64,000 nucleotides of DNA, taken from the NCBI GenBank assembly GCA_027405735.1, contig JAPEHQ010000003.1, forward strand, positions 1,984,001-2,048,000. Reading direction: 5' to 3'. The translations under genes and the position numbers were made by a program. The notes below the pieces were generated by a model. The model made no database searches, was not told where the DNA came from, and was given only the letters and a program-made list of their open reading frames with translations. The DNA comes from Mucor racemosus (taxonomy: Eukaryota; Mucoromycota; Mucoromycetes; Mucorales; Mucoraceae). This document shows positions 3,790-59,614 of this stretch, piece by piece (within the stretch, counting starts at the first letter, position 1; each line of letters opens with the position of its first letter).

Positions 3790-4330
3790 CTCCCCAGCGT
3801 GAAAAAAAGGGTACATCTTATTGCTACGATTTAATCACCAAATATAGGATAATGCTAAAGTTTTAATTTTGGATAGTGATATAGCTGTAGTATTTACTTT
3901 GAAGCTTTCAGCCAATTTGGATCAATATTCATTACTTACAAGTGCTTTTCCAATTGCTTTATTTTTTTTAAGCAGGATGAAGAGAGATTTTTCTGGAAAA
4001 CATGTGTTAATTTTCTTCAAAAACAGTTGTTAGCTAATGAGTTCAAGATATTTTATTTGTATATTTGCTGTGCATTAAATGCAACTTTAAAATTTAATTT
4101 CGAATTATTATTTGGTTTTATAAAAATTTTCAAAGAATATCGGAAATAACCCATACAATATAGTTTAAACAAGTACGTGTTTTCATTTTCCCATTTTCAC
4201 AGCAACTCGGAAAGGCTGAAACTTTGTAATCCTGTAAATCAACACTAGAGATACAACCTATTATTGCAGCGGGAGCTTATTTGAATTCATATTTGGCGAG
4301 AGATGATGAGCTTACTGACCTTAGTAGGTA
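3790..4330 (+). repeat. R2 repeat fragment (5' part)
   Basis: Diverged copy of the segment at about 47,730-48,260 in the right arm of the large inverted repeat. Shared blocks include AGCTTATTTGAATTCATATT (AGCTTATTTCAATCCATATT in the arm), TTGGCGAGA and GATGAGCTTACTGAC, in the same order. It stops abruptly where R1 copy 1 begins near 4,340. Confidence 0.75.
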
Positions 4331-4339
4331 TATCGGTAT

Positions 4340-5995: not shown

Positions 5996-6523
5996 TTAAA
6001 CCATTCAAATTATCTTTATTATTAATTATATTATGGTTGATATTGCTACAAAAATAGTAATTAAACAAAAAAAGCGTTGCGACTACAATTATAACAACTC
6101 TTTGATATTTATTTAAGATATAAAGTAAAGCAAAGGTTTATGGATTACCATCGCCTTTGTAATATATATACTATTTTCTAATTCTATTAATAATACAGTA
6201 ATAAGATCTTGAAGCAAGATCTTCATGGTTTAGTTTCTAGTTTGGAAGTACCAGTGGTACAATTTGACATTTTAAAGTTTTGTGTGATTTAAAGTTATTA
6301 GATCTTAGATGTTGACTAAGATCAATTTGATTACTAAACAAACTTGGTATATGTAGTTTACTACAGATATAATACTTTAATAAATTGACTAAAAAACCTT
6401 GATCTCATTATTCTGCTCATCTGGGCTGCCTGATCTGCACAAATTTTTTTATTCTGCCCATCTTCTGTGCAGATCATCATCATGCATGCTCATGAAAAGC
6501 ATATTTCGTCCATAGTGCACCGT
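5996..6523. repeat. R1-associated tail with insertion
   Basis: From about 6,370 the sequence matches copy 3 near 14,035-14,150 (AATACTTTAATAAATTGACT and the TCTGCACA block). About 340 bp at 6,030-6,370 are absent from copy 3 and look like an insertion. No gene. Confidence 0.5.
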
Positions 6524-8495: not shown

Positions 8496-9056
8496 TAGTC
8501 CTGAAGTGAACTAAGCTAGATTCCCATCATAAAATACCTAAATTAAATGTCATCTCATTTGAAACCATGCTATCAAAGATAAGACTATATAGTAAATAGA
8601 CAATTGCATAAAGATAGCAAGGGTATAATACTCAAATAAGAGATGCTAAAATACTACTAAAGTAATGTGGGATATCCTAAATAAAAGATACAAAAAGTAC
8701 ATGCTTATCAAGTAGAACAAGTAAGGGCTGTTCTGAAAGCATGATTGACAAACTATATTTAAAACACCGTTCTTGATCCACCAAATCAATAACCAAACAA
8801 CCCAACATTTATACTCAAAATTAATGGGATCGTTGACAATTGCAATGCAATTGCAAGATAGTAAATAATCACCAAATAATATAAATAGAGACGTAGAATA
8901 ACCATTTTATTGCACATTATCCATATTTTAATAAAGAAGGATTTTAACAGTATTCTTTATCGCTTTTTACACCCATATTTTACTGCAAGTCCATTAAATT
9001 ACAATTTACTAGTATACTGTTGGTTGTTTTTTGTTATTACTTTAAAAGCTTGATTC

Positions 9057-9097
<41 letters not shown>

Positions 9098-9642
9098 GCA
9101 TTGATTATAATTGTCAAACTAATTGATTCATACAGTATATCATATTATTCTTTCGCATTGGTAGAGATTATACAATTGATATCTGCATTTAACAGTGGTG
9201 GATTGGAAAGTTGGTGTCTGTCTTTAGTTTGATGAATAATGCGTACTTTGGTCATCCAGTATAATTTATAATTCTAAGTGTTTCTACTCCTAAAAACTGA
9301 CTTTCCAAATTCAACTGCATCTGTTGAATATCACTTGAGTTTCTGTGCGTTGTAGCTCATGTTGTGCTAACTCCCATTTTGGCAAATATTGCTTTATATT
9401 CATCCATGTTCAATTTTTGTGTTACACATCTTAATATTAATGTACTAACATTGAGTTTTGTCTATACCTCCATCAAAAATTGGCATTTTTTCCAGATGAC
9501 TGTCTACTACCAATTTCTGTAAAGCTTTACTATCATTTCCAAAAAGAAAAAATACACCTTAATTTGCTGTATTTCCCAAGATAGTGAAAAAAAGCTGACA
9601 AACACATGTCTACAAATACGCGGATTAAAATTGTAGACCAAA
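8496..9642. other. intergenic; ATT microsatellite
   Basis: No gene seen. A perfect (ATT)n run of about 13 units lies at about 9,058-9,096; the Leu-rich frame across it is an artefact of the repeat. Confidence 0.6.
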
Positions 9643-9815
9643 GGAGAGCGACAAGCTTAACGGGTAGCGCATGCGCTACAAATGGAGTGCGACACACATA
9701 TTTGTGAGTTCAAACCCGCCAAAGGGGAAGTCCTTTGGTATTAGGATATGAATTTCGAAAGAGAATCTCCGATGACCTTGCTTCTCATCGAATATAATCC
9801 TCCTTTTTTTTTTTC
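9643..9815 (+). mobile_element. tRNA-derived SINE candidate
   Basis: Positions 9653-9663 (AAGCTTAACGG) match the Pol III box A consensus at 10 of 11 sites, and 9708-9716 (GTTCAAACC) match box B completely, 45 bp apart, as in tRNA-derived promoters. The flanking T-arm stem no longer pairs, so this is not a functional tRNA. A roughly 95-bp non-tRNA tail follows and ends in a T tract at about 9,803-9,814. Head, body and T-tail are the layout of a SINE. Only one copy is in the window. Confidence 0.45.
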
Positions 9816-9879
9816 TTAATAAGTTTTGCATATGTCTAGCAAATTTTTTCATTTCTCATTAATGCATATGATATGTATA

Positions 9880-10107
9880 CTTGTAAATTTGGCTGGCAAA
9901 ACCCGGCCCGACACTAATACTACTACCAGCATCGATGGGTCATTTTACGCTCAGTCAGTTCGAGCAACAAGTTGGTTACCTGCTTCTTACACTTACTAAG
10001 ATCAGCAAGCCCATCAGTTCTTCTCAACAAATATGAATTTAAATGACCTCCCGTTGCAATGACAAGTACTTCTAGCGCTGATCCGCAGAATTGCATAAGG
10101 TTTAGCC
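9880..10107 (-). repeat. R2 fragment, reverse orientation
   Basis: About 9,950-10,107 corresponds to 38,180-38,340 of the left inverted-repeat arm (GTTGATTACCTGCTGTTCAC there, GTTGGTTACCTGCTTCTTAC here; both end in GGTTCAGCC or GGTTTAGCC). It is preceded by a 45-bp block (AATTTGGCTGGCAAAACCCG) found again at 16,167-16,196. It abuts R3 directly. Confidence 0.65.
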
Positions 10108-10655
10108 TTGTCGTATATTTTCAGGTTTGGTGAATAATACTTAAAAAAGAATACAATTAAAAGAGAATGAGTAATGAATGAGTTCTTCAACTGTATAATA
10201 AAAACAAGATATCGTTTATTTAAATATAAAAGTATGACCTTTTATATTGATTTGACATTGAGAACCTGAGATGTAATTTACAGCACTATTCAACCATTAG
10301 ATCTGTTTGATAGTGATCTATGTATTTAAATGGATCAATCATAATTTAACCGTTTTTGCAGAGCTTGTGAGTTGTCAGTTGTCAGTTGTATTGTTTCAAT
10401 GCTGCGCTAAATATGCTTCAATGTCGATTTGATTGCTATTTGATTGATTAACCGCTGGGATAAAATAATATAGCGTTATAATTGAGATCCAAGCGTTATT
10501 GGTAATCGCTGGATAAACTTGGTACACTAGGAGTCTTTTATATCCAGTATCAAGAGTTTGCATTTCATTAAATCTCGTAGTCAATAAATTGTAAGATGTA
10601 TTGATACTGTAGAAGGAGATAGCATATGGCACTTGGTGGCATACAACATCGTATA
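10108..10655 (+). repeat. R3 repeat, copy 1
   Basis: About 540 bp, from GTCGTATATTTTCAGG to GGTGGCATAC, similar along its length to 42,568-43,100 (estimated 90% or more by eye). Shared features include GAGAATGAGTAATGAAT, AACCGCTGGGAT and TTGAGATCCAAGCG. No convincing coding frame. Confidence 0.85.
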
Positions 10656-11743
10656 TGATTCATATTTTTGTCAGTGGTCACTCTTCCAAAAAAGCCGAAC
10701 AATCTCTGGAAACGTCCATCTAATTATATTTCCAAGCTTTAAATCTCTAGAAAAAATTACCGGACAGCCCGGATGCAGCTGTTTCAATATTCCAAGCAGC
10801 TATAAAATGCAGGTATTGAAATTTCATACAAAAATTAAGTTTCGACTGTATTGCTGCTATTAGCTACTCAAAGGCTTATTTTAAGTAAAGCATAAATACA
10901 ACTTACAACATTATTAGTCTAATAACAGATTGAACTTGAAAAGTATAAGATGATACAACCGGATTCAAAAAGAGTCATAAAATCACAAGTTTAAAGAATT
11001 TATATATAAAAGCACTACGGCCGACCTATATTGCACAAGATAATTTTTTTGTGCCTAAGTGGGCTGCACAATATGGCCTGATGAGTTGCTGCGCTCACTG
11101 AATAATGGCTAAAAAGATAACAAGATGCTACACATGAGCACAGCAAAAGAAACTGCACACGAGCATAACGAAAAGCATGTATGTACAGAATTATAGATTC
11201 TGTCCATGCGCATAACATTAATCCCATGTATGCATAATAGTAGAATTGCCCATAAGCATATCCTTATTCCTATTTGTGCATAATAATAAAATCTGACCGT
11301 GAGGATAATAACGAGCTGGTCGAATGGGCACAAATTGGTTTCTACATGAGAATCGTGCCGTTCTCAAAATTCCATTGTATTTTTCACTAGAATAAGTTTT
11401 TAAATCACATTTGTTGCTTTTATTGATATAGATTGTAGACAATGCAATTCAATAATACGTTGTTGATGTAGAGTAATACATACAAGAGCCTTCACATTTA
11501 CGATTATTATTATTTGTAAATATGTTTATAGCTATACTGTTTACAGCAACTATAGTTTTTGCTAGAGCATAAACTTAAATAACACCTAGTGCTTAAATTT
11601 ATATGCAAGCCAATTCTAAGATTATAGATGTCACTTTATCACTTATCACTCATAAAATTTAAATAAATTAACTTTCTTTAAACTTACTAATTTAGTTTTT
11701 TACGGATTGTCAGCTGTACAAAGATTTGTTTTCAAGCATGGCT
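10656..11743. other. intergenic with degenerate tandem repeat
   Basis: No gene. About 11,195-11,320 contains two and a half imperfect units of roughly 47 bp (TCTGTCCATGCGCATAAC and related). The remainder is AT-rich. Confidence 0.45.
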
Positions 11744-14170
11744 ACGATCAAAACTATGGTCATTAGACAAGACATCAAACTATTCTTTTTTTGTATTTCT
11801 ATACCATTTGAAATTGTATCACTTTCCTGGAATATTTCTTGGGTTTGCAGCCAGTTCTAGCTTTTCATTGAATAGATACTATAAATATCATTGCCTTCGA
11901 TTTGATCTGGTAATCAAGAAATACGTCCAACAAAACAGTAGTAAATAGTGATATTAATTTGACCCTAAAATGCGGTTAAATAAAAATATCAGCCTCTAGT
12001 ATAGACTGCTACCTACATTGAAAATATTAGTCCCTTATGTTAGCATGCGTATTCAGATACAAGAAAAGAATACCAGCTTGATAGTCTGGTATGCCTTATC
12101 AAACAGTGAATATATTCTTGGAATATGAAAACAAAAAGGGAGAAACAACACACGTAGAAAAGGATTCTCAAGGCTCTACATTATTTAGTGCAATTAAAAC
12201 CCTGCTAAATTGAACATTTCATCCAATGTAAAAGCAGCATTATTACGGCGCATGAACAATAAACTAAAGAATATAGACAATATCTGTTACCATAGAAGCA
12301 TACATCTTTCTACCAGAAAAAACGTCTGTCATATCATACATTCATTAAAAAATTGCAAAAGAGAACCCGTAGAGCGACGCCGTAATTGAGCATAGCAAGA
12401 TTGAACGGCTAAGTCTCTTATAATGTGGTATATCTAAATTTTAAATAAAAAAGCGTCTTTTTTTTTTACTTTTCTTATATTTAACCATGTACAGTCTGAA
12501 AATTCAGATTTTATAGCGGACATTTTCGGGACTCATTTTATCCTTACCAACGCTCATGATTTGAATCAAAAAACAGAAAAATCAAACTTTGATACCAAAA
12601 TCAACGTTTAAATATACTACATTGTGAGAGAAAATTGTAGCCATGACTAATACACATTTTATAAAAGTTTAATATTAAATGTTAAGTAATAAAAATTTGC
12701 ACTTTTGGCCCAAAAACGGAATTTTGATTAAAGGATTTTCATGTAATATTTTGCAATAAAAATGCTAGTTATTTTTTATTGAGCAGATAGAGCGCTAAAT
12801 TCTGTATATGTGTTTATTTTTTATTTTTTTAATTGGTAGTATAATTAACCCTAGATTTGCAAAATCAGAAAAAAAAAATTAAAAAATGTCAAAATTGATG
12901 ATCTGGACGAAAATAATTTTCGAAATTAATATCCCGCTTATAAGCCTTGTAAATCTTAAAAATAAGAGATTTTATAATACTTGAGAAGTTTTTCAAGAAT
13001 TTACGATGCTGTACCCACTTGATTCAAGCTTATAACTGTAGATCTTTATACATGTTAATATTGTGTGGTAGTTTATTTGATGATAATATAGTTTTACTTG
13101 ATAATTAATGCGTTAGAGATGGTTTACATTGAGTTTTAATCTTACCCCTCCAATATCATAAACATAAACATGGCCATCACTGGGACCTATTGCCACCTTT
13201 TTACCCTCTTTGTCCCAAACCAATTTATTCAATGCTTTACCAGAACAAACTTTTGATCTATAAAAATTGATTTATTAGTAAAATCAATTATTAATTAATA
13301 ACAAGCTAATAAGTAATGATTATGGTGTATCTTTGATAGTTGGTAGTGATATACAAGACAACATCTTGTTTTCCTCTTCTTAGCTGTTGGCCACTAAATA
13401 GAAATAAATGTTTTTTAGAAACTAAATAGACTAACAACATGAATTTATTCATTCATTCAAATCAAGTCAATACTATATATACTTTTAAAATCACCAGTTT
13501 TTTTCCAGGTAGATATCGATTTTAGGCCAAAAAAGCATTAATTATAACGTAGATAATGGAACAAAATGACCAAGTCTTGGATACTTTTTTTGTTCGAGAA
13601 AAATATTATAACGCACCCTAGCATTAACAGTTAATAATTCATTTCCAAATAAACAATAGGAAAAACATGTACTTGTACCTGCTACTTGATTTCAGTTTAT
13701 AAAAAAATATTGGTTTTTTGTTGTAGTTTTAAACGTAAATAAAAGAGCTGAGGAAAGAGTGGAGACGAAAAAAGAAAAATAATCCTAAATCAGTCGATTT
13801 TATGTGTTACAAACAGAAATTTACAAAGGCATAAATACTTTTAGTGTTGCCAAACAGGTTGTTGTCGTTGTTCCCATTTGGTCCCCGAAAAAAGAACAAG
13901 GGCAGAGCTCTTTCGAACCCCAGATTTCAAATTGATATCTCCTCGTCAATAAGGCAATTCTGTTGAATCAGAGTAACACACATCTACTTTAAACCATTTA
14001 AATTGTCTTCGTTATTAATTATATTATAATTGATGTAATACTTTAATAAATTGACTAAAAAAAATTGATCTCATTGCTTTGCTCATCTGGGTTGCCTGGT
14101 CTGCACAAAAAAAATCATTCTGCACAGATGTGCAGCACATTATGCTGATGGGAAGCATGGTTTGGCCGTA
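11744..14170. repeat. R1 repeat, copy 3
   Basis: Starts at ACGATCAAAACTATGGT like copy 2, runs through the common core (12,340-13,140) and one dynein-like exon (13,146-13,250, minus, ending in a GTAAG donor), then follows the copy-1 type tail to about 14,170. It is the most complete example of the copy 1/3 subtype. Confidence 0.85.
13146..13250 (-). pseudogene. captured dynein intermediate-chain exon fragment (R1 copy 3)
   Basis: Minus strand reads NKLVWDKEGKKVAIGPSDGH, then VYVYDIG, then a GGTAAG donor. It is nearly the same as copy 1 and isolated from any other exon. Confidence 0.65.
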
Positions 14171-14549
14171 GTGCAATTGCACTACCCTAACATTGGCCTA
14201 ACATTGACCAAAGGTTAATTGTAAAAATTAAGTATCATCTAAACTGAGATTTTTATTTTTTATATTCACAAGGTAGATATACAATTAATTATTTAAAACG
14301 AGCCGAGCTTTTTTATGCCGCCAAGCTTTTTTCAAGGCTCGTTGAAGTTAGAGACGAGCTTACAAAAAAGCTCGTTCACCCCGCACGAGCTTTATTTCAC
14401 CTTTCAAGTGGCAAATATCTAAAGTAAAACAAACTTATGAATGTCAATTGATAATTATCTAAGGTAGTAGTGTCATATCATTTACTAATCATTACTAAAT
14501 TTGAACTTTTTGAAAAGAAGTCAAAAGCTCGGTTTGCGTTTTATAGTTA
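14171..14549. other. spacer with GCTCG-rich cluster
   Basis: About 14,298-14,391 contains repeated CGAGC/GCTCG words in both orientations, interleaved with A and T runs. No gene. Confidence 0.5.
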
Positions 14550-15960
14550 GATATAACTGAAAGCTATTCTGCAATTTTTGTTTTAGCGAAAAATATTGAT
14601 TTTTCGTCGAGATAATCAAAATAATAGTTTATATTACAGCTTAGCCCTATTGTTGCATTTTTAGAAATGAATTATTAGATAGTTTGTTGTTGGTTGGTCA
14701 GGTGTATGACCTAGTCATTGTTATTTGTTTCTTTTTTTTTGATTCTTATATAAATACTTCGTAGGCTTGCATATGCTTTTGTTCCTTGTCTGTTCAAGTG
14801 AATAACAAGTGTATTGCAGTTGCAATTTCGTTTAGCGTAACAGATCAAACTCCAAAACTTAAATTTAATCGATTTTATACAATTCAGTATAATTTCCCAG
14901 AAACATTTTATCCACGCAACACTATAGTAACGGGGTTCTAAAATTAATTTGAAAAAAATGATCGAAAAATGATGAAAAAAACAAAATCGTTTACAAGCTC
15001 ATGAACTGCAAAGTAAGTAGACCTAGTGCATTAAATAATTTTTGAACAGTTTTAAATTCTGCGTCCATCTAAGCAAAATTCAGGTAAATGTGTCATATTA
15101 AATTTTGCGTAAAATTCAATTGAAATTTTACAGCTTTTTTGAAGGTACACATCGCTTTTTATAAACATGTTTCAAATAAAAGTTATGAAAATAATGCATA
15201 AAAAAATTATCTATCAATCGAGCCATTACTGAACCTTTTAGATGCATTTTTCGTAGAGGAAACGAGATTTCTGTTCAAATTTTTTCAGATTCAGAATTTA
15301 GAATAAGGGTATACAAGGGGAAAATGGAAGCCAGAAATGAAGGGGTCTTTTTATACACATTTTTAAGGATATCTCCACGAAAAATTAATATTTTAAAAAA
15401 AAAACTAAATAGGATCCGAGAGAGCGCAACTAGCTTAATGATATGAATGCAAAAAAAATGTTGCTCAATTTAACCAATATTTTGAAACCTACTATAGAAA
15501 TGCCAAAAAAAAAATGAAAAAAAATAAAAGTACTCAGAATTTTTTTATATTAAAATATGTTATAGAGCACTTTAAAAAAAGTAAGTTTTATTATTAAAAG
15601 TGTTAGTATAGCTAAATTTTTTCTAGAGATATGAAGCCTCAAAGTTTTCAATCCATTAGCAGTGAAATACGCGTAAAAAATCTGAAACCTTAGCACTGAA
15701 AAATTAATACCACCTGCAAAAAATAGGATATTTTTGGATACTTATTTTTGAATTAAAGCTGAACATCTCAGGTACATGGGCATATAATTTTTTCTTGCTG
15801 TTATTTAGTGAAAAAAAAAATAGAGCAGGAATGAAAAGTGAGAGCCAGTTTTCGAGGGAAAAACGGAGAATTTTACTTGTTTTTGGATCTTTCGTGAGAT
15901 ATAGAATAAATTTAGGAATAGGTAGCATAATGCGACCAATTCATATTTGTTTATATAGAA
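14550..15960 (+). repeat. R2 repeat, copy A (degenerate)
   Basis: Matches the right inverted-repeat arm from about 48,880 to 49,960: AAATATTGATTTTTCGTCGA, CTATCAATCGAGCCATTACT, ATATCTCCACGAAAAATTAA, GGATCCGAGAGAG and CGTGAGATATA occur in the same order. The reading frame that is open in the copy near 36,861-37,283 is broken here by stops and shifts. Confidence 0.8.
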
Positions 15961-16764
15961 GTTTCTAAGATATATCCTAAAATCTGCTCCATATGAGATT
16001 AGTTATAGAAAAGAGGGTACGCTTCGATTTTAAAGATCAAAAACTATGAAAATTCAGTTTTTGAAAATTCAAATTTTTCTTGAATAGGTATATATGTACA
16101 AAGAAATATGGAATTTATTTTAGCGTATGGAGGAGTAGGGATGTGTCGAGCCCAGCTTATACTAGTAAATTTGGCTAGCAAAACTCGGCTCGACACCAAT
16201 ACTGGTATAAAGTGTAAATTTTTCTGTGTATCAGCGTCAACAAAGTTCGTCGGCTATGGAGTGTACCTATTCACTTCCAATAGAAAATACCGTATATAAA
16301 AAATTATTTTTATTATTGTCATAGTTGTAAAAATTAGTATATCAGATATTGTAATAAGTAAAAAGAGAAATTATATATAGCTAATATATGTGATTATGCG
16401 TGCATGCGCTGTAAGCAAATAAGTTAGTATATTTGTATGTAAGTAATTATGATGAAAGATATGCATCATTTGTTCAAAAATTAATAGTAATCAGTTATTG
16501 GTATATTGTCTTGTGAGTAGACTGCAGTTGCAGATAATGAGGGGGAGGACGTAACAGTGAATTCTTTTAGTACCACCAAAGCTTCACTGTATCCTATCTG
16601 GTTTAATTTTTTTTGGAAAGCCATAGATATTCGAAAGGCAGGTTTTATCATTTTCTTTTTTATATTACCACCATTATCATTGTTTATTGATATAAATGCA
16701 AGTTTTTTTTCGATTAAATCTATGTCTGTATATTACAATTTAATTAAGAATGATCTCTATTATT
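15961..16764. other. intergenic, 10-bp inverted pair
   Basis: Perfect inverted words GTGTCGAGCC (16,143-16,152) and GGCTCGACAC (16,187-16,196) flank the 45-bp block also seen at 9,880-9,920. The rest has no recognised content. Confidence 0.5.
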
Positions 16765-36559: not shown

Positions 36560-39500
36560 TTACATTTTTCCTTGAAATCTGGGTCCCATTTTTTACCCCT
36601 ACTCTACTTTTTCTTTTCATTAAATAACATCAGGAAAAAATTATATGCCAATGTACCTGAAATTATTAACTTTAATCCAAAAGCAAGTATCCAAAAATAT
36701 CCTGTTTTTTGCAGTTGGTATTAATTTTTCAGTGCTAAAGTGTCAGATTTTTACGCGTATTCCACTGCTAAAATTGAAAACTTTGAACCTTCATATCTTT
36801 GAAACAAATTAAGCTATACGAACATGTTTTAATAGTAAAACTTACTTGTTTTTAACCACTCTACAACATATTCTGGTATAAAAAATTTTTGAGCATTTTT
36901 ATTTTTTTCATTTTTTTTGACACTTTTGTAGTAGGTTTTAAGATATTTGTTAAATTGAGCAATACTTTTTTTATATTCACATCGTCCCCCTTATTGAGCC
37001 CTCTCGGATCCAATTTAGTTTTTTTCAAAATATTGATTTTTCGTGGAGATATTCTCAAAAATGTGTCTAAAGAGATTCTTTTGTTTCTACCTCCCAATTT
37101 CCCCTTGTATACCCTCATCCCAAATTCTGAATTTGAAAAAAAAATTGACAAAAATCTTGCTTTCTCTACGAAAAATACAGCTAGAAGGTTCAGCAATGGC
37201 TCAATCGATAGATAATTTTGTTGTGCATTATTTCCATAAACTATTTTTAAAGTATGCTTATAAAAAGTGATGCGTATCTTCAAAAAACCTCCAAAATTTC
37301 AATGTCATTTTGTGCAAAATTTAATGCGATACATTTGTTTGAATTTTATTTAGCTGGATACAGAATTTAAAACTGTACAAAAACTATTTAATAAGCTATT
37401 TCAATTTACTTTGCAGTTCAGGAGCCATAAAGCAATTTTGTTTTTTTGATCATTTTCAGGTCGATTTTACAAATCAATTTTGGAGCTCAGTAAGCATAGG
37501 GTTAAGCTGTAATGTAAACTATTACTTTGATTATCTCGACGAAAAATCAATATTTTTTGCTGAAACAAAAACTGCAAAGTAGCCTAAAGTTGGATCTATC
37601 TTGTAAATACAAAAAACCAACACTTTAATTTAGGCGTTCAATTTTTTGTAACTTATTTTAGGTAAATCGTGGTAAATTATGGTCAACATTTGACCAGTGC
37701 ACTTATATTCTGGTATTAATATTTCTATTTTCCGAGAAATATCAATGGCTTATAGAGTGAAGGGTGAACGAAGGTGTACATCTCCTTCGAAGATTTTATG
37801 TGATTCGACTCAATATTAAGCGAAAACATTTGAAAATTATTTAAAATTCATCTGAAGCCTCCTTTCCTACAGCCGTAAAAACCGACAACAAAAGTCTTAT
37901 CTCAATGAATTTCAACCCTATCAACTTTCAAATTTACATGAAGGTAGGTACACACCTTGGATGCAATGGCCTCAAAGGGCAACTTCCACAACCTATTGTA
38001 TATCGAGAAAATTAATGCGAAAGTGCACCTATACTTTACGGCGCCCTTTTAATGAAAAACAATCAAAAATCAGATCTTTATAAATAATGATCCAGGCAAG
38101 CTGCCACTCTACATGAGTATAGGTATGGGTAGTAGTAGATATTCCAAGTATATTCAATATCAGCTTGCATAAATCATCGTGTATTCAGTAAATTTGAGCA
38201 AAGTGTTGATTACCTGCTGTTCACACCCACTAAAGTCAGTAAGCTCATCACCATTTCTCGCCAAATATGGATTGAAATAAGCTCCCATTGCAATGGTAGG
38301 TATTTCCAGTACTAATCCACGGAATTTCAAAAGGTTCAGCCTCCACGAGTTGCTGTGGAAATGGAAAAATCAAAACTCGTACTTGATTAATCTATTTGTA
38401 GTATGTGCTGTTTTAGATATTCGGATTATTTTATAAAATCAAATAATGGTTCAAATTTGAATTTGAAGCTGTACTTGATACGTAATAGTGGATATACAAA
38501 GGACATATCTTGATTTCATTAGCTAACAGCTGCTTTTGAAGAAGTATATTATCATTTTTGACAAGAAACCTCTCGTCCTCTACTTAAAAAATTGAAGGAA
38601 CTGGAAAAATGCTTGTAATAATCAATAAATATTGATTCAAATGGGCTGCAAGTTTCAAAATATACAACAGTATAACATTAGCCAGCGCTAAATAACTCTA
38701 GTATCCCATGGATTTGCTTGCTAGATAAATCGTAGGAATCAAGAGTACCCTTTTCCCAAATGGGATTTGCTGCTAAATAGACAATTTGAAATTAGAAATA
38801 GCAGCGCCCTACTAAATCAGTGAAAATCAGCATATACGGAAATGAGGACACTAAACTTAATAATTAAACGTCGTGCTTATACATGACCAATGCTGTCGTG
38901 TAAAGTTCAATGTGCTTTGAATTTATTTTTCAAAAATTTTAGGTTTTAAATATTGATTTACAGTAAGTAACTGTAAGCAAATAAATATTAGAAAATAAAA
39001 AACCTTTTTATTTCTTGAATAAACTAATCTACTAATAATCCTCAGTAAATAGCCATCATATTTTATGCAACTTTATCTACTAGATGATTTTTAAATTTTC
39101 AAAAAATATAAATTTTTCATCGAGTTATAGATAAATTAAGATTTGATGAAAGGTAGTTGACTTAAATGCAAAGCTGTGGTGCATAAAAAATCTGCATTTA
39201 TGAAAAAAATTTTGAGCAAAATGTTTTATTTAAAATCGTAAATTCATGCAGAATTAGATGAGCTACAAAAACCATTTAATGGTCAAGTGACGGTAAATAT
39301 ACAGTTTTTTGTCAAATATTGGAAATATTTCCTAATTTCCAATATTTTTCACATTTATAGCTTAAAAATAGACTACAGCTTAAAGCGCGCGATTTCATTT
39401 AAAGTCCGAGAGTGTCGAATTTTGAAACAAGACATTAAATTTTTTTTTTCGAGATTTTGATAGAACGATATGGTTGGCCGATTTATAGCCCAGCAAAAAT

Positions 39501-40933
39501 TGACACTCTTTCAAATTTCAAGCAATATTAGTGGCTCCCGTCATTTGAATCATTTTGTAAGGATGTTTTTCGATGTTATATCTGTCATTACTCCATGAAA
39601 AATGTAGTTACAATTAAGAAAAAAGGTGGAAATGAAAGCGGCGCATTTTGCGCACATTACAGTACTAAAAAAACAGAAATGCAAATGCTTTAATGTTTCG
39701 TTTTGGAGTGATTAAAATCATTGGTCATTTAGTCAATTTTTATAAATCTTGATATAATGCATCATTACTCGATCAAAATTGTAGCTAGAATCCAGTAAAA
39801 TAATGCAAATAAACAAGAAAATGCTGCATATTTTGTATTTTTAAAAATAAAGATCTACAAGTGTCTTCATGTTTCAATTTTAATTAATAAAAATGATTAA
39901 TCATCTACCTAACTTTTAAAGATTTCTGTATGATGTATTGTTACTCGATCACAAAAAATGCGCTTATAATAAATCAAAACAGTACAAATAAAGCTGTACA
40001 TTTGCATCAAAGTGAGGTATTATAAAATACAGCTTGAAAAAAGACACAATGCTGTTTATTGAAACTTTGCGAATGACCAATTATTTGACAAATTTGGCAT
40101 CATTTCTGGCTATTGCAAATGTGAAACGCTTTTATCAGGCTTTTGAATGTAAAGTAACTACTTTTCCAATATGCATATTTAATTTGGTGTATAATAATGG
40201 TTTGTAAAATATATGTAATTGGTAGAGATATCAATAAATCAAGAGTAAAAAATTTTGTATTTTTGAATATTACTGTATATGATGTGACAAAGGCAATTTC
40301 CAAGTAAAAATTAAGAGAAATGGATACGTGATAATAATGATGGCATTAGGATTATGTATTTTCTGAGAATATATATTCTTTTAGAGAGAATGTTTTCCAA
40401 TGAGTCAAATATGTGACACTTTGGATTATTGCCATTAGATAGAAGAGGATAAAATAGATATAATATCTTTGTTGATAATTTCTTGAGTTCTGTTCACTGT
40501 TGACCCTCGATAAAAGTTTTGCTCTGTATAACACAGCATTGAGTCAGGGTACTTGTTCCTAATCGTAGACTTTTGAGATATAATTCTTGAGGATTATTTG
40601 TATTTAGATCTTTACGTATAGATCTTTTAGTTTTAAGTTGATACCGATTCGAGATTGTTACATAGTAGTGATGCAGTATTCATTAAAGACGTATTTGGAC
40701 ATATCAATTACTATGATAGTTTGATAGTTTATTTTTGTATGACGAAGAAGAACGTTATATGATGTATATCATCAATATTTTGAATGTATCTACGTAGAAA
40801 AACTGTTTATTTAGCTTCACTGTATACATGGATTAAAACCGTCATGTGTCCCATTAGCTTTATTTTGTATGTGCTTGTTGTTGTTATTAAATGTAAGGGA
40901 AGATGGTTCAATATAGATTTACATACAGGCTAC
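36560..40933 (+). repeat. left arm of 4.37-kb inverted repeat (outer part is R2)
   Basis: Mirror of 45,542-49,915. Paired positions add up to 86,475 through most of the arm (40,534 with 45,941; 40,100 with 46,375), changing to 86,474 near 36,889/49,585, so indels are very rare over 3.6 kb. Two short frames, 40,352-40,534 and 40,100-40,303 (minus), are repeated with the same translation at 45,941 and 46,172 (plus). The outermost ~100 bp (36,560-36,670) is clearly less similar than the rest. The outer ~1.5 kb is R2 in reverse orientation. Confidence 0.95.
36861..37283 (-). pseudogene. open frame of the R2 repeat (140 codons)
   Basis: Lys/Ile/Phe/Asn-rich frame containing FFVEKARFLSIFF, GMRVYKGKL and FLRISPRKINILKKTKLDP. 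The same frame is open in copy D (58,854-59,198), where FLRISPRKMNILKKTKL is kept, is split by a one-base shift in the right arm, and is broken in copy A. No known domain is recognised. It is listed as an element-derived relic. Confidence 0.4.
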
Positions 40934-41635
40934 TTTGGTTTTTTCTCAAAAGCCATCAGTTAGTAAAATAAATTTTACCTCAATATTATTAACTATTATA
41001 TAGAAAATACTTCCGTGATAAGCTTACAGTGGTGCAAGATTGGTTTGTTAAGGGTTAAAGATATATATATTATTTTTAATTATTGAAGTATTTAATATTT
41101 ACATACTACTGTTATTTAAGCTTTCAAAAACATTAATGCTGATTATTTTTAACAATAAAACTAAATTTTCAATGAATATTGATTAAGCCGATTATTGAAA
41201 CCGTCCTCTTCTTGCGAATTACAATACAATTTTACGTACACATGTGAAATGACATAAAAATTATGTGCTTATTTAATATTTTACATACATTTGATGAATG
41301 TGGATTTAAAAGCAAATAATTCAAAACATGAATGGGTACAGTATACTAAAGAATACAAAAACAAACGAGTAAACTGTATTCGTATATTTTATATATCAAG
41401 ATATTAATGGTAATGCCATAATGTCACAGTAACTTGTTTCCAGAATACATTGTACATTAATAAGCATTTAATCATGGAAGCAGGTTTTAATGACTATTTG
41501 AATAAAACTATTGGCATGTAGGAGGAAAAAATATGTTGAGATAATGAGATAATAAAGGGAAATACACGTATTAATAAAACATACTTGAAAAAGATTTTCA
41601 ATCAGGTTTACAAATGTAATTATACATTATGGAGA

Positions 41636-41753
41636 AAAAATTTCTTAATTCTCTTAATTGTGCCTTATTAAGGAAAATATGAAAAATTTCACTGCTTATT
41701 TTTTTTTGAATTTTGTGCTACTATGGCACAATTAAGAGAATTAAGAGATTTTT
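41636..41753. repeat. foldback hairpin (MITE-like)
   Basis: CTTAATTCTCTTAATTGTGCC at 41,644-41,664 and its exact complement at 41,725-41,745 are separated by 60 bp. Pairing extends outward over AAAAAT with one mismatch, giving about 29-bp arms. Confidence 0.8.
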
Positions 41754-42567
41754 GCTTCATAATGAAACGAATTTCACTTTACATAACTATATCATAATAG
41801 CTATATATCAATATGGCTCTATTATAGCTTATTTTTTTATAATAATTCAAGTCAAGAAACAAGCTGTTGCAGGCTTTTTATTTACCAATTATATGGATTT
41901 ACCGGCTTGTCATTGAGGATTTTTTTATCGTACATCTTCTCTTCCTGATTGATTAAATTTATATTATTTTACTGTACTACATGACTTTCTACTATAAAAT
42001 GTAATAATAGATATCGTCCAGATGCTTGTCAAAAATATATTTTAATGCGTATCTTCTATTATAAAAGAAGGGAAAATATGAATACCTTTATATAAAGCGA
42101 TATAGGATGTTATGATAAATGCAGCATCACACCATTTAAGCAATTTATCAAAATACAAAAGACACTAGGGTGGTAAGGCGTATGAGACACGAATTTAGTG
42201 TACATAATTTTTATTATGCATAAAGGTATGAGTTACATCCATACAATTATATGCGTTGAATTTTGCATAGTACATTGTTGTACACATTACGTGCAATAAA
42301 ATTATAAATTTTTATCGACTTTCTTTGATTTATACAGTATACATTATGGAGGCCACAATAACGAGATCCTAAGCAAACATTTATGACAAATAACAAATAA
42401 CATACAATAATAAATAAATTCAACAAAAAACTAAATAATAAGCATCACAAATAGTCATTTTTATTATTCAAAAAAAGAAATTTTCATTTACAATTTCTGG
42501 TACGTAAATCAATCAACGATGTTAAAATAGTCTCTCGACCTTATTCTCTTTAAACTAATTAATCACT

Positions 42568-43104
42568 GTCGTATATTTTCAGGTGATGAATAATGCTTAA
42601 AAAAGAATACAATTAAAAGAGAATGAGTAATGAATCAGTTCTTCAACTGTATAATAAAAACAAGATATCGTTTATTTAGATATAAAAGTATAGCCTTTTA
42701 TATTGATTTGACATTGACATTCTGAGATGTAATTTAAGGCACTATTGAACCATTAGATCTGTTTGATAGTAATCTATGGATTTAAATGGATCAATTATAA
42801 TTTAACCGTTCTTGCAGAGCTTGTGAGTTGTCTTGTTTCAATGCTGCGCTAAATGTGCTTGGATGTTGATTTGATAGCTACTTGATTAGTTAACCGCTGG
42901 GATGAAATAATAATATGGTGTCATAATTGAGATCCAAGCGCTCCTGGTAATTACTGGATTAAACTTGGTACGCTAGGAGTTTCTTACAGTATATAAGATA
43001 CCAAGACTTTGCACTTCAGTACATGTCGTAGTCAATAGATTGTAAGATGTAGTGATAATGTCGAAGGTGATAACGTATGATACTAGGTGGCATACTGTAC
43101 AACA
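42568..43104 (+). repeat. R3 repeat, copy 2
   Basis: Second copy of the element at 10,108-10,655, same orientation. Here it is joined directly to R1 copy 4. Confidence 0.85.
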
Positions 43105-44765
43105 ATGCGTATTCAGATAGAAGAAAAGAATACCAGATTGATAGTCTGATATGCCTTATCAAACGGTGAACATATCCTTGTTGGAGGAATATGAAAACAA
43201 AAAGAGATAAATAACACACGTAGAAAAGAATTTTTAAGGCAATGCAATTAAAACGTTGCTAAATTGCACATTTCAGCCAATGTAAAAGCAGCATTACAGC
43301 GCCTGAACTATAAACTAATAAGCAAAATAGGCAATATCTGTTACTATAATAGAAACATACAATTTTCTACCAGAAAAACCGCCTGTCATATCATACATTC
43401 ATTAACAAATTGCAAAGGCGAGTCCGTAGAACGACGCCGTAATTGAGCATAGCAAGATCGAACGACCAAGTCTCTTATACTATGGTATATATCTAAGCTT
43501 TAAATAAAAATTCGGTTTTTTTTTAACTTTTCTTATATTTAACCACGTACGGTCTGAAAATTCAGTTTTTGTAGCGGACATTTTTGGAGTTCATTTTAGC
43601 CTTACCAACACTCATGATTTTAATCAAAAAACAGAAAAATTAAATTTTGATACCAAAATCAACGTTTAAATATGCTACATTGTGAGAGAAAATTGTAGCC
43701 ATGACTAATACACATTTTATAAAAGCTTAATATTAATTGTTAAGTAATGAAAATTTGTACTTTTGTCCCAAAAACGGATTTTTGGTTAAAGGATTTTCAT
43801 GCAATATTTTGCAATAGAAATGTTTGTTATTTTTTATTGAGCAAATAGAGCGCTAAATTCTGTATATATGTACATTTTTTATTTTTTTAATTGGTAGTAT
43901 AATTAACTCTAGATTTGCAAAATCAGAAAAAAAAAATTAAAAAATGTCAAAATTGATGATCTGGACAAGAATAATTTTCGAAATTAATATTCCGCTTATA
44001 AGCCTTGTAAGTCTTAGAAATAAGAGATTTTATAATACTTGAGAACTTTTTCAAGAATTTACGATGCTGTACCCACTTGATTCAAGCTTATTACTGTAAA
44101 TATTTATACGTGTTAATACTGTGTGGTAGTTTCTTTGATGATAATATAGTTTTACTTTATAATTACTGCATTGGAGGTGACTTACATTGAGGTTTAGCCT
44201 TATCTCTACAGTATTATAAATATAAACATGGTCATCATTGGAACCTATGGTTACCTTTTTACCCTCTTTATCCCAAGCCAATTTATTCAATGCTTTACCA
44301 GAAGAACCAACTTAAGTACTTAAAAATGGTTCCTCGGTATTTGTATTCAAATTCCATAAGTTAAACTGACTTGCTCCATCTACAGTAGTATCAAACGTAT
44401 TATCATCCCGCCTTATGATAATGTCAATCTAAAATTAGAAATATCCCACCATTGTCATTGTTATAAGCTATAAAAAGCTTGATTTTTAATAATACAGCAA
44501 TTAAATAAAAAACAAAATGATACTAATAGCATATAATAAGTATTCAACATCTAAGTAATTCTGATGAAGTATCCTTTTAACCCCTTTTAAAAATCCTGAG
44601 GCAAACACAACATCTTGGTCCTGTAATTTCTATCCATCAAAATGTTGCGATTTCCACTGCACAATGAATGCATCTTTTATCAACCTTGACCTCGATGTAC
44701 ATTGGGTATCAGTTTTTTACCAGTTGTATTTTCACTGATTCATTAAAATTCAGTCATATTAAACG
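43105..44765. repeat. R1 repeat, copy 4
   Basis: Starts inside R1 at GCGTATTCAGATAGAAGAAA (6,825 in copy 2) and runs through the core into two dynein-like exon fragments, then the tail shared with copy 2 (CATCAAAATGTTGCGATTTC). The copy 2/4 subtype is defined by this tail. Confidence 0.85.
44206..44435 (-). pseudogene. captured dynein intermediate-chain fragment (R1 copy 4)
   Basis: Minus strand: a block with VDG and FNLWNLNTNTEE (about 44,330-44,435), then NKLAWDKEGKKVTIGSNDDH and VYIYNTVE. The donor at the exon end has changed from GTAAGA to ATAAGG. Decayed copy of the last WD40 part of dynein intermediate chain. Confidence 0.65.
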
Positions 44766-45541
44766 ATGATTTGTAGTATTGCCAAAAAAAAAAAGAATAA
44801 ATGCTTCAAGAGTTTTCTGCATATCAAATTATGCAACTTAGTAGTAATGATTGCACTTACTGTAACTATTATCATGCTTTTTGAACCTACTGTACTTGTT
44901 TATATATATATATATATATATATATGTATAAGGAAAAAAGGATGAAGATGTCAAACTATGAGTATAAAGATCAGGTATTTATATGTTTTAGGAGCGCGGA
45001 TATAGGGTATAACATTTGGTAGTTAAATCTTGATTTCATAAGTTGGACGACCAGTTGTATGAGGTTTTGATGGGAATAAATTTGACCCAAACCAGTTCTG
45101 ACAAGGACGAGGCAAATTTAAGTAGATAGGATATTCTTTGATGATTGATTAAATGGGAGAATATTATTTATAACAGAAAAAATCAATGTGAATTGCAGGT
45201 AAAGATTTACATTGGCTCAGCTTAAATAATATAACATCATCTTAGACTAAACATAATATATAATATAATCACTCCACCTTATTCCATAATTGAAATAAAG
45301 TTGATATGCATCATTCCTTACAGTTCCTAACTCTAATAATCATGTCCAGATAACCTATTAAGAACTTACGATAAATCACACCTTCTGCGCTTATTATTAG
45401 TATTACATATTACATAATCCAGCTCAATATTTAGTCAGTACCTTAAACATATAATACGTAAGTAAATCAACGATGTTAAAATAGTCCCTCGCTCTTATTT
45501 TCTTTAAACTAATTGATCACTTTCGAAAAAAAATATTTTAG

Positions 45542-48500
45542 GTAGCCTGCATGTAAATCTATATTGAACCATCTTCCCTTACATTTAATAACAACAACAA
45601 GCACATACAAAATAAAGCTAATGGGACACATGACGGTTTTAATCCATGTATACAGTGAAGCTAAATAAACAGTTTTTCTACGTAGATACATTCAAAATAT
45701 TGATGATATACATCATATAACGTTCTTCTTCGTCATACAAAAATAAACTATCAAACTATCATAGTAATTGATATGTCCAAATACGTCTTTAATGAATACT
45801 GCATCACTACTATGTAACAATCTCGAATCGGTATCAACTTAAAACTAAAAGATCTATACGTAAAGATCTAAATACAAATAATCCTCAAGAATTATATCTC
45901 AAAAGTCTACGATTAGGAACAAGTACCCTGACTCAATGCTGTGTTATACAGAGCAAAACTTTTATCGAGGGTCAACAGTGAACAGAACTCAAGAAATTAT
46001 CAACAAAGATATTATATCTATTTTATCCTCTTCTATCTAATGGCAATAATCCAAAGTGTCACATATTTGACTCATTGGAAAACATTCTCTCTAAAAGAAT
46101 ATATATTCTCAGAAAATACATAATCCTAATGCCATCATTATTATCACGTATCCATTTCTCTTAATTTTTACTTGGAAATTGCCTTTGTCACATCATATAC
46201 AGTAATATTCAAAAATACAAAATTTTTTACTCTTGATTTATTGATATCTCTACCAATTACATATATTTTACAAACCATTATTATACACCAAATTAAATAT
46301 GCATATTGGAAAAGTAGTTACTTTACATTCAAAAGCCTGATAAAAGCGTTTCACATTTGCAATAGCCAGAAATGATGCCAAATTTGTCAAATAATTGGTC
46401 ATTCGCAAAGTTTCAATAAACAGCATTGTGTCTTTTTTCAAGCTGTATTTTATAATACCTCACTTTGATGCAAATGTACAGCTTTATTTGTACTGTTTTG
46501 ATTTATTATAAGCGCATTTTTTGTGATCGAGTAACAATACATCATACAGAAATCTTTAAAAGTTAGGTAGATGATTAATCATTTTTATTAATTAAAATTG
46601 AAACATGAAGACACTTGTAGATCTTTATTTTTAAAAATACAAAATATGCAGCATTTTCTTGTTTATTTGCATTATTTTACTGGATTCTAGCTACAATTTT
46701 GATCGAGTAATGATGCATTATATCAAGATTTATAAAAATTGACTAAATGACCAATGATTTTAATCACTCCAAAACGAAACATTAAAGCATTTGCATTTCT
46801 GTTTTTTTAGTACTGTAATGTGCGCAAAATGCGCCGCTTTCATTTCCACCTTTTTTCTTAATTGTAACTACATTTTTCATGGAGTAATGACAGATATAAC
46901 ATCGAAAAACATCCTTACAAAATGATTCAAATGACGGGAGCCACTAATATTGCTTGAAATTTGAAAGAGTGTCAATTTTTGCTGGGCTATAAATCGGCCA
47001 ACCATATCGTTCTATCAAAATCTCGAAAAAAAAAATTTAATGTCTTGTTTCAAAATTCGACACTCTCGGACTTTAAATGAAATCGCGCGCTTTAAGCTGT
47101 AGTCTATTTTTAAGCTATAAATGTGAAAAATATTGGAAATTAGGAAATATTTCCAATATTTGACAAAAAACTGTATATTTACCGTCACTTGACCATTAAA
47201 TGGTTTTTGTAGCTCATCTAATTCTGCATGAATTTACGATTTTAAATAAAACATTTTGCTCAAAATTTTTTTCATAAATGCAGATTTTTTATGCACCACA
47301 GCTTTGCATTTAAGTCAACTACCTTTCATCAAATCTTAATTTATCTATAACTCGATGAAAAATTTATATTTTTTGAAAATTTAAAAATCATCTAGTAGAT
47401 AAAGTTGCATAAAATATGATGGCTATTTACTGAGGATTATTAGTAGATTAGTTTATTCAAGAAATAAAAAGGTTTTTTATTTTCTAATATTTATTTGCTT
47501 ACAGTTACTTACTGTAAATCAATATTTAAAACCTAAAATTTTTGAAAAATAAATTCAAAGCACATTGAACTTTACACGACAGCATTGGTCATGTATAAGC
47601 ACGACGTTTAATTATTAAGTTTAGTGTCCTCATTTCCGTATATGCTGATTTTCACTGATTTAGTAGGGCGCTGCTATTTCTAATTTCAAATTGTCTATTT
47701 AGCAGCAAATCCCATTTGGGAAAAGGGTACTCTTGATTCCTACGATTTATCTAGCAAGCAAATCCATGGGATACTAGAGTTATTTAGCGCTGGCTAATGT
47801 TATACTGTTGTATATTTTGAAACTTGCAGCCCATTTGAATCAATATTTATTGATTATTACAAGCATTTTTCCAGTTCCTTCAATTTTTTAAGTAGAGGAC
47901 GAGAGGTTTCTTGTCAAAAATGATAATATACTTCTTCAAAAGCAGCTGTTAGCTAATGAAATCAAGATATGTCCTTTGTATATCCACTATTACGTATCAA
48001 GTACAGCTTCAAATTCAAATTTGAACCATTATTTGATTTTATAAAATAATCCGAATATCTAAAACAGCACATACTACAAATAGATTAATCAAGTACGAGT
48101 TTTGATTTTTCCATTTCCACAGCAACTCGTGGAGGCTGAACCTTTTGAAATTCCGTGGATTAGTACTGGAAATACCTACCATTGCAATGGGAGCTTATTT
48201 CAATCCATATTTGGCGAGAAATGGTGATGAGCTTACTGACTTTAGTGGGTGTGAACAGCAGGTAATCAACACTTTGCTCAAATTTACTGAATACACGATG
48301 ATTTATGCAAGCTGATATTGAATATACTTGGAATATCTACTACTACCCATACCTATACTCATGTAGAGTGGCAGCTTGCCTGGATCATTATTTATAAAGA
48401 TCTGATTTTTGATTGTTTTTCATTAAAAGGGCGCCGTAAAGTATAGGTGCACTTTCGCATTAATTTTCTCGATATACAATAGGTTGTGGAAGTTGCCCTT

Positions 48501-49915
48501 TGAGGCCATTGCATCCAAGGTGTGTACCTACCTTCATGTAAATTTGAAAGTTGATAGGGTTGAAATTCATTGAGATAAGACTTTTGTTGTCGGTTTTTAC
48601 GGCTGTAGGAAAGGAGGCTTCAGATGAATTTTAAATAATTTTCAAATGTTTTCGCTTAATATTGAGTCGAATCACATAAAATCTTCGAAGGAGATGTACA
48701 CCTTCGTTCACCCTTCACTCTATAAGCCATTGATATTTCTCGGAAAATAGAAATATTAATACCAGAATATAAGTGCACTGGTCAAATGTTGACCATAATT
48801 TACCACGATTTACCTAAAATAAGTTACAAAAAATTGAACGCCTAAATTAAAGTGTTGGTTTTTTGTATTTACAAGATAGATCCAACTTTAGGCTACTTTG
48901 CAGTTTTTGTTTCAGTAAAAAATATTGATTTTTCGTCGAGATAATCAAAGTAATAGTTTACATTACAGCTTAACCCTATGCTTACTGAGCTCCAAAATTG
49001 ATTTGTAAAATCGACCTGAAAATGATCAAAAAAACAAAATTGCTTTATGGCTCCTGAACTGCAAAGTAAATTGAAATAGCTTATTAAATAGTTTTTGTAC
49101 AGTTTTAAATTCTGTATCCAGCTAAATAAAATTCAAACAAATGTATCGCATTAAATTTTGCACAAAATGACATTGAAATTTTGGAGGTTTTTTGAAGATA
49201 CGCATCACTTTTTATAAGCATACTTTAAAAATAGTTTATGGAAATAATGCACAACAAAATTATCTATCGATTGAGCCATTGCTGAACCTTCTAGCTGTAT
49301 TTTTCGTAGAGAAAGCAAGATTTTTGTCAATTTTTTTTCAAATTCAGAATTCGGGATGAGGGTATACAAGGGGAAATTGGGAGGTAGAAACAAAGGAATT
49401 TCTTTAGACACATTTTTGAGAATATCTCCACGAAAAATCAATATTTTGAAAAAAACTAAATTGGATCCGAGAGGGCTCAATGAGGGGGACGACGTGAATA
49501 TAAAAAAAGTATTGCTCAATTTAACAAGTATCTTAAAACCTACTACAAAAGTGTCAAAAAAAATGAAAAAAATAAAAATGCTCAAAAATTTTTTATACCA
49601 AAATATGTTGTAGAGTGGTTAAAAACAAGTAAGTTTTACTATTAAAACATGTTCGTATAGCTTAATTTGTTTCAAAGATATGAAGGTTCAAAGTTTTCAA
49701 TTTTAGCAGTGGAATACGCGTAAAAATCTGATACTTTAGCACTGAAAAATTAATACCAACTGCAAAAAACAGGATATTTTTGGATACTTGCTTTTGGATT
49801 AAAGTTGATAATCTCAGGTACATTGGCATATAATTTTTTTTTTGGTGTTATTTAGTGAAAAAAAAAGTAGAGTGGGAATGAAAAGTGGGAGTCAGTTTTC
49901 GAGGGAAAAGCGGAA
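45542..49915 (-). repeat. right arm of 4.37-kb inverted repeat
   Basis: Reverse complement of 36,560-40,933. Identical translations of two short frames and a nearly constant coordinate sum show very high identity in the inner part. A handful of substitutions and a one-base shift appear in the outer R2 part (RNKR against RNKG, GLNK against GLNE). Confidence 0.95.
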
Positions 49916-50337
49916 AATTTCGCCTGTTTTTGAATGTTTCGTGAGATATATAAATTTAGGATATATTATTGCAATCGATTTATATACATCTTTAAAAAGA
50001 AGTTTTTTAATAAATCTCCTCTCCTATCATTTTTCATGATCCAGAGTAAAGGAGTACATATACCCAATACAACTAAGCATCTAGCACAACAACTGCAATA
50101 AGTTCCAGATTATATCATAATGTGAGCTTTTATATCAGTTCCTTTATACTAGGGGTATCTACTGTTGATAATTCTACATTCATTAGTATTTGTATATATT
50201 GTTAATCTACGTAAACGACTATTTGCCGTTATAATGATTATTGAAGACGTGGAAAACAATCATAAGAATTACAATTCATTATTTAATAATTCACTGATTA
50301 TTGGTATATTTTATTGATACATAAAAGAGATTTCGAT
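49916..50337. other. intergenic, R2 end and flank
   Basis: The R2-like similarity to copy A (CGTGAGATATA) continues to about 49,990; after that nothing is recognised. Confidence 0.5.
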
Positions 50338-58139: not shown

Positions 58140-59360
58140 CAGTAAGCTATGGGTGCATTTTGGCGATGATTTTATTATCGAAACATAGTATGTTGTGGAA
58201 GTTGCCGTTTGAGATCATCGTGTCAAAAATGTGTACCTACTCTCACGTAAAGTTGGAAGTTATTAGGATTGAAATTTGCCGAGATAGAGTTTTTGTTGTT
58301 GGTTTTTTATGATTGTAAAAAGTAATGTTTAGATGGTTTCAGATAGTTTTCAAGTGGATTTTGAATGTTTTCGCCCGATATTGAATTAAATTGCCTTAAA
58401 ACTTCAAAGATGATGTACTTTTTTTCTATGGGCCATTGTACCATTGATATCTGCAAGGAAATAAAAGAGTTGGTCAAAATTAACTTAAAGTCGATTGTAA
58501 AATTAAGCACCTAAATTGAAATGCTAATTCTTTGTATTCACAAGATAGATCCAACTCAAAGCTATTCTACATTTTTTGTTTCAGCAAAAAAAAAAATTGA
58601 TTTTTCGTCGAGATAATCGAAATAATAGTTCACATTACAGCTTATGGCCTATGATAACTGAATTCCAAAATCGATTTGTAAAATCGATCAGAAAACCAAT
58701 TTGGTTTAATAGTCCATGAACTGCAAAGTAAGTTGAACTAGCATATTAAAAAGTTTTTAGACAGTTTTAAATTCTGCATCCATCTAAACAAAATTCAGAC
58801 AGATTTTTTACATTAAATTTTTTGCAAAATACGATTGAAATTTTAGAGGTTTTTTGAAGATACACATCACTTTTTATAATTACGTTTTAAAAGTAAATAA
58901 TGAGAATGATGCGCAGCAAAATTATCTATCAATCGAGCTATTGCTGAACCTTATAGCTACATTTTTCGTAGAGAAAACGAAATTTTTGTCAATTTTTTTT
59001 TCAAATTCAAAATTTGGGATGAGGGTATACAGGGGAAAAATTGAACCTAGAAGCGAAGTTATCTCTTTGTACACATTTTTGAGGATATCTCCACGAAAAA
59101 TGAATATTTTGAAAAAAACTAAATTGGTTCCGATAGAGCTCAACGAGATTGATGGCATGAATTTAAAACGAATGCTGCTCAATTTGATGAAAATTTGAAA
59201 TCTATTATAAAAATGTCAGAAAAAATGAAAAAAAAAATAAAAGTGCTCAGAATTTTTTTATACTAAAATATGTTATAGAGCACTTTAAAACAAGTAAGTT
59301 TCATTATTAGAAAGTGTTAGTATATTTTAATTTTTCGTAGAGATATGAGGTCTCAAAGTT
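58140..59360 (+). repeat. R2 repeat, copy D
   Basis: Diverged full-order copy of 48,440-49,690: GGTTGTGGAAGTTGCC-like start (ATGTTGTGGAAGTTGCCGTT), the motif TTGATTTTTCGTCGAGATAA at 58,598, an open frame at 58,854-59,198, and ATATCTCCACGAAAAATGAA at 59,085. It ends near the block AGATATGAGGTCTCAAAG. Confidence 0.8.
58854..59198 (+). pseudogene. open frame of R2 copy D (114 codons)
   Basis: Aligned without gaps to the R2 frame at 36,861-37,283 in its first ~110 codons, roughly two thirds identical by eye (FFVEKTKFLSIFFSNSKFGM against FFVEKARFLSIFFSNSEFGM). No domain recognised. Whether it was ever translated is open. Confidence 0.35.
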
Positions 59361-59614
59361 TAGATTGTGAAGCGATGAAAACTGCAAATTCTGGTATTCA
59401 AAGGATTTATTCTAGTGAATAGCAAATAATTGAATGGTATCCGAGATACGACGCCGAAGCGAGATATGTAATTGGTGGTTTTCCAGGTGAATATTTATAA
59501 TGCAATATCGGAATGATCCAGACAATGACTAATTGCGACAAAAAGTAGAAAACAGATGAAAAATTCCTAGTCAATTATGATATGACAATGGTATTATGAA
59601 TGATCCACGTACGT
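59361..59614. other. short spacer after R2 copy D
   Basis: Nothing recognised. Confidence 0.4.

Follow-up and report, generated by a model that had tools for sequence, protein, structure and literature searches.

In Foldback and Galileo-type transposons, the inverted ends are long and variable and the middle is poor in genes. In mammalian sex-chromosome palindromes, arm identity exceeds the age of the structure and gene conversion proceeds in multi-kilobase tracts; for palindrome P6 of the human Y chromosome, the mean tract is reported as 2,068 bp and the maximum as more than 9 kb (PMC3723533). Inverted repeats of Caenorhabditis are reported to have paralogous arms that are more alike than orthologous ones in a structure common to several species, with spacers of 126 and 414 bp between paired genes (PMC1803023). 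In Candida tropicalis centromeres, inverted repeats of 2–5 kb flank a core of 2–5 kb, the arms being 93% identical within a centromere and 82% between chromosomes (PMC4741521). Here we describe a palindrome, W, in a 64,000-nucleotide stretch of the Mucor racemosus genome (the window; G000:C3:1984001-2048000), together with related palindromes found by searching all 53.2 Mb and 54 contigs of that genome. A glycosyltransferase encoded in the window is 98% identical to a metagenome protein, 90% to Mucor circinelloides and 84% to Parasitella, in keeping with a Mucor-like host. We consider it likely that gene conversion between its arms made the W arms identical.

The Mucor palindromes resemble each of these systems in part. 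As on mammalian sex chromosomes, arm identity exceeds structure age; as in Caenorhabditis, arms within one structure are closest to each other even though the structure is shared; and as at C. tropicalis centromeres, homogenized inverted arms surround a core. They differ in that mammalian palindromes lie on sex chromosomes and many bear genes, whereas the repeat here is non-coding and dispersed over many fungal contigs. The Caenorhabditis examples are gene pairs with short spacers, whereas those in Mucor have spacers of ~0.5–12.6 kb, belong to a high-copy family and are loci of one genome. C. tropicalis has seven centromeres with one layout each, whereas contig C3 of Mucor carries four palindromes and one further inverted pair with identical scores. 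In contrast to Foldback and Galileo elements, they yielded neither clean ends nor a target duplication nor a transposase, and their extent depends on the locus. The process is of a known kind; what is unusual is its setting, a fungal repeat that is dispersed and non-coding and forms many palindromes of this type. We recognized no report of similar palindromes in Mucor in the literature searched, which excluded most subscription papers.

Self-BLAST confirmed the large inverted repeat reported in the initial annotation, pairing 36565-40933 with 49909-45542 at 99.336% identity over 4,370 columns, with 26 mismatches and 3 gaps. The arms are 4.37 kb each and the core between them measures 4.6 kb; paired positions sum to 86,475 at the inner end and to 86,474 farther out, as annotated. 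The left arm (36565-40933, + strand) comprises an outer block, O (36565-38475), and an inner block, I (38485-40933), with its outer end directed leftward and truncated at 36565. The right arm (45542-49909, − strand) is an inverted copy of the left arm, and its family sequence extends ~56 bp beyond the left arm's cut-off point (49910-49965, − strand, right side only). Short frames had been said to translate identically in both arms, as is the case for an 81-residue frame at 40100-40345 (−) and 46130-46375 (+).

Differences between the W arms are concentrated at the outer edge, as had been noted. The outermost ~103 bp contains 16 of the 26 substitutions and two of the three indels, a divergence of ~16% that resembles that between separate family copies (36565-36667 on the + strand, ~84% identical to 49807-49909). 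The next 890 bp inward differs by ~1%, with nine substitutions and one indel, and the innermost mismatch is a single one at position 40925. Counted outward to inward in 218-bp bins, the mismatches number 17, 4, 3, 0 and 1, followed by zeros and a final 1; the outer 654 bp thus holds 24 of 26. The left-arm interior (37560-40924, +) is identical to that of the right arm (45551-48915, −) over 3,365 bp, an exact match that is not explicable by chance. Judged from the sequence, the interior has been homogenized, as first proposed, and the edge has remained diverged.

The age of the structure was assessed by comparison with other palindromes of the same family. Locus E lies ~130 kb from W on the same contig (C3, 1.88 Mb), and the two share the left and right arm/core junctions as well as the insertion of a long terminal repeat (LTR), with an identity, gaps excluded, of 92–95% in both arm and core. 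Locus A also shares both junctions with W, and loci B and C, compared at one junction each, share that junction. The shared junctions and LTR insertion at this level of identity indicate that the palindrome predates the split between W and E. In block I, the W arms differ at one position in 2,449 bp, whereas W and E differ by 5–7%; on the basis of the junctions shared with E, the identity between the W arms is far above that expected from divergence since the palindrome arose. Simple inheritance of the arms would group them by side, but in the tree the two arms of the same locus were sisters at 100/100 in all five two-arm loci (W, E, A, C24 and F), and grouping of the W and E arms by side was rejected (p-AU of 6e-42 and 9e-5). 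The palindrome is therefore old and its arms were recently rewritten, since E shares the structure and yet the arms of each locus are closest to each other. The description 'very young' accordingly applies to the converted interior and not to the palindrome structure, because E, 5–8% diverged, and the more distant A share the arm/core junctions.

We read 13 palindromes at the DNA level, W included. Because these loci were picked for resemblance to W or for inverted pairing of family copies, 13 of 13 cannot be read as a frequency, but the 12 further examples show that W, for which a search for the arms elsewhere had been proposed, is not a one-off. Locus A (C6, ~1418290-1454420) has arms of 11.75 kb with 99.54% identity by BLAST, locus B (C3, 2.58 Mb) arms of 5.2 kb with 97.8%, and locus E arms of 2.0 kb with 96.4%. 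Locus C (C23) matches over 1,639 bp with one mismatch, and locus D (C12) over 2,230 bp with one mismatch and 817 bp with three. The arms of C24, F and C5 are partly covered by the stretches analysed, their outer ends lying beyond them; L043, L044, L045 and L046 complete the set. Spacers range from ~0.5 kb (L043) to 12.6 kb (A, including a 7-kb retrotransposon), and the extent of the palindrome also varies: W consists of blocks O and I, B of O and core blocks, C and D of core blocks, and A of 11.75 kb that include other repeats.

In 9 of the 13 palindromes, mismatches were piled toward an edge, as unconverted edges at tract boundaries would be; the remaining four (C, D, C24 and L044) carry no more than four mismatches each, too few to show a pattern. 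In A, 42 of 52 mismatches fall in the outer 1.2 kb (the first 587-bp bins hold 32 and 10), with two in the long middle and eight near the core. Locus E has 71 of 72 at its two ends, 36 in the first 200 bp and 35 at the inner end; the intervening 1,600 bp has one. The inner fifth of B, near the core, holds 72 of 79, and F has none in 3.4 kb followed by 40 at the inner end. Similar piling was found in the last bin of C5 (9 of 10), the inner part of L043 (25 of 27), the inner end of L045 (14 of 16) and the outer end of L046 (18 of 20). Edge divergence per bin was ~14–27% in W, E, F, B and L046, like that of separate family copies, and ~5–9% in A, C5, L043 and L045. Under a uniform spread, the chance of such piling in W, A, E and B is 4e-18 to 4e-46, for bins chosen after the data were seen. 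A possible further large palindrome, with two family markers in mirror order and near-equal scores, lies at G000:C6:883507-901227.

Orientation was compared using a core frame bearing a WD40 exon fragment, for which 150 matches, the best-scored of 2,948 candidates, were available. Pairs at most 30 kb apart comprised 29 inverted and 16 direct ones, and identical scores occurred in 14 of the 29 inverted pairs versus none of the 16 direct pairs (Fisher p 0.0006), an inverted bias demonstrated for the sampled pairs. All six of the identical-score inverted pairs that were checked at the DNA level, out of 14, were palindromes. A search with the arm gave 10 inverted overlapping neighbours within 30 kb (W included, one C23 pair double-counted) versus one direct neighbour. 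Two direct family-block pairs at locus E are 84% and 90% identical versus 96% for its inverted arms. Inverted copies in the window that lie ~21 kb apart across genes are ~82% identical and have not been homogenized.

The proposed process starts from an old dispersed repeat, two copies of which lie close together and inverted relative to each other. When one arm suffers a break or a stalled fork, the partner arm, located on the same chromosome, would serve as the template for repair by gene conversion, and this would have rewritten stretches of ~1 to 9 kb, perhaps stepwise. Edges beside a non-homologous flank or core would escape conversion and keep their older divergence. A crossover between inverted copies would only flip the spacer, leaving the pair in place for further rounds of conversion. 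Direct pairs would instead be lost and not homogenized, because a crossover between direct copies deletes one of them. A further possibility, which we regard as rather improbable, is that the identical arms are functional, with orientation-specific homogenization keeping the family in mirror pairs whose hairpin transcripts could feed Mucor RNA silencing. Mucor has an RNA-silencing system that acts against mobile elements.

Several observations weigh against conversion as the general explanation. An identical score is a proxy for identity, taken from the best-scored 150 of 2,948 candidates, and the 13 loci were themselves selected. One direct pair (C1:4319404/4342186), 21 kb apart, is 97.6% identical with evenly spread mismatches, and L046 contains a third copy that matches each of its arms at 97% identity and is therefore a direct partner of one of them. 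Recent duplication fits C, D, C24 and L044, with their few mismatches, equally well. W and E could also have acquired their palindromes independently at the same pair of junctions, a possible but less simple history. Finally, the data come from one genome, in which conversion among strains is not seen.

The principal rival to gene conversion holds that the palindromes are merely young: at each locus, part of a family copy would recently have been duplicated in inverted orientation, through template switching for instance. The near absence of mismatches in C, D, C24 and L044 is in keeping with this, as is the way in which one arm of W, A and C ends while the other runs on in family sequence, which would also be expected of a new copy; the excess of inverted over direct neighbours (29 versus 16) could likewise reflect births of inverted copies. 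However, a duplication starts identical and diverges evenly, so mismatches piled at the ends favour conversion over a young duplication. Near-identical interiors with diverged edges were found in 9 of 13 loci, the edge profiles of W, A, B, E and F speak against duplication, and both junctions and the LTR are common to W and E, whereas the sole near-identical direct pair has the even spread that a plain duplication should leave. We therefore consider recent duplication unlikely. Misassembly or a library artefact, through chimeras, palindromic reads or the use of one arm's reads to polish the other, is the least probable of the explanations and highly unlikely. Assemblers do fail at near-identical arms, and the assembly is the sole source for the palindrome, but the W arms carry 26 ordered differences, their outside flanks differ, the palindromes read have spacers of ~0.5–12.6 kb, the sister E with the same junctions is 5–8% diverged, and an artefact should not end at the edge of shared family sequence.

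The arms could also be the very long terminal inverted repeats (TIRs) of a non-autonomous transposon, identical because each new insertion brings freshly matched ends. This would account for the high copy number, for the arm/core architecture and inner junctions common to W, E and A (after 'CAGGCTAC'), and for the host-like WD40 exon in the core, as in gene-capturing elements. Against it, freshly matched ends would leave no diverged edges and the extent of the palindromes varies by locus. The outer edge was examined for transposon ends and target duplications: it is ragged, fading ~210 bp past the arm, and no target duplication was recognized there. A transposase domain was also lacking, as annotated, in the five small frames tested against Pfam, the family not having been searched frame by frame. 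Such a transposon is accordingly very unlikely, although the ancestor may have been one with long inverted ends. Interpretation of the outer block as an LTR-like unit of 1.1–1.2 kb was rejected, its inner limit being ragged as well. An inverted-repeat centromere, expected once per chromosome, fits poorly, as C3 carries W, E, B and F and an identical-score inverted pair at 3.43/3.46 Mb. Recent duplication, misassembly and a centromere all fit worse than conversion.

The W arms belong to a repeat family that is old, non-coding and present in many copies in this genome. The left arm matched 55 pieces at 77–90% identity, excluding the window's own two copies, in a search that scored 40 of 3,960 first-look candidates; locus E reached 90–92% to the left arm in the arm searches. 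The inner block, the outer block and the WD40-bearing core frame are each high-copy, the family copy counts being lower bounds. The core pieces seen in succession in the window and locus A were named c1 to c5, and block order differs between loci. Block I has a GC content of 0.282–0.306 in palindromic and single copies alike, with no shift seen, although this was not a formal test. Block I copies with the same two ends (query 19-1788) occur at four places between 122 and 507 kb on G000:C9 and at C8:307556, ~85% identical to the window; those at C8:307556 and C9:122248 are 93–95% alike and perhaps belong to a separate younger subfamily. The window also holds older rearranged family copies at 3805-16132, which served as a comparison set and contain direct pairs 88.7–94.4% identical by BLAST, and a fragment of the family's outer arm end at 58475-59370 (−), ~80.5% identical to the arms.

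The core of W (40934-45541), initially annotated as gene-free, contains no intact gene, but it does hold a decayed solo LTR of a Ty3/gypsy element (42567-43086, −), the insertion shared with E, and the WD40-bearing frame (44054-44311, −). In Pfam, this frame gave weak WD40 matches and the other four small frames gave none; actin-interacting protein 1 and dynein intermediate chain 2 (C-terminal part) are among its best natural matches. A protein-database search for homologues of the frame yielded no candidate with enough words in common. The label 'dynein intermediate chain-like' is tentative, because designed WD40 proteins score higher and the query mixed residues from several copies. Most scored copies of the frame have at least one in-frame stop; 9 of 150, including that of the window, have none. 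An imperfect self-inverted segment (hairpin) of 140 bp at 41625-41764 is found in locus D too, near the inner arm ends. At gathering thresholds, Rfam identified nothing but the tRNA.

Younger elements lie within some of these loci. The core of locus A holds an intact-looking copy of the Ty3/gypsy element whose decayed LTR sits in the W core (L031:1048-8103, C6). Its two 530-bp LTRs are identical, and it has a 5-bp target duplication, a 1,875-residue open frame and matches to gag, reverse transcriptase, RNase H, integrase and chromodomain; this is a very recent insertion. In an arm of locus A (L035, C6, ~2378-2558), a 181-bp repeat that is 97–99% identical at 10 other scored places is nested inside an older repeat of ~520 bp and looks like a recently active small element. 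Locus E contains two inverted copies (L041 5039-6678 and 7429-9069) of a 1.64-kb transposon with inverted ends of ~214 bp, about 40 scored copies of which are ~98% identical. We rejected them as a second homogenized pair, counting them as copies of a young multi-copy transposon, and left close direct pairs made by its own ends out of the counts.

These results caution against dating a palindrome by the high identity of its arms. Arm-to-arm conversion is known best from sex chromosomes. Fungal palindromes with readable tract edges, and with direct pairs as built-in controls, would make tract length and the effects of distance and orientation measurable genome-wide, and the non-coding nature of the family would mean that such measurements are little affected by selection on genes.

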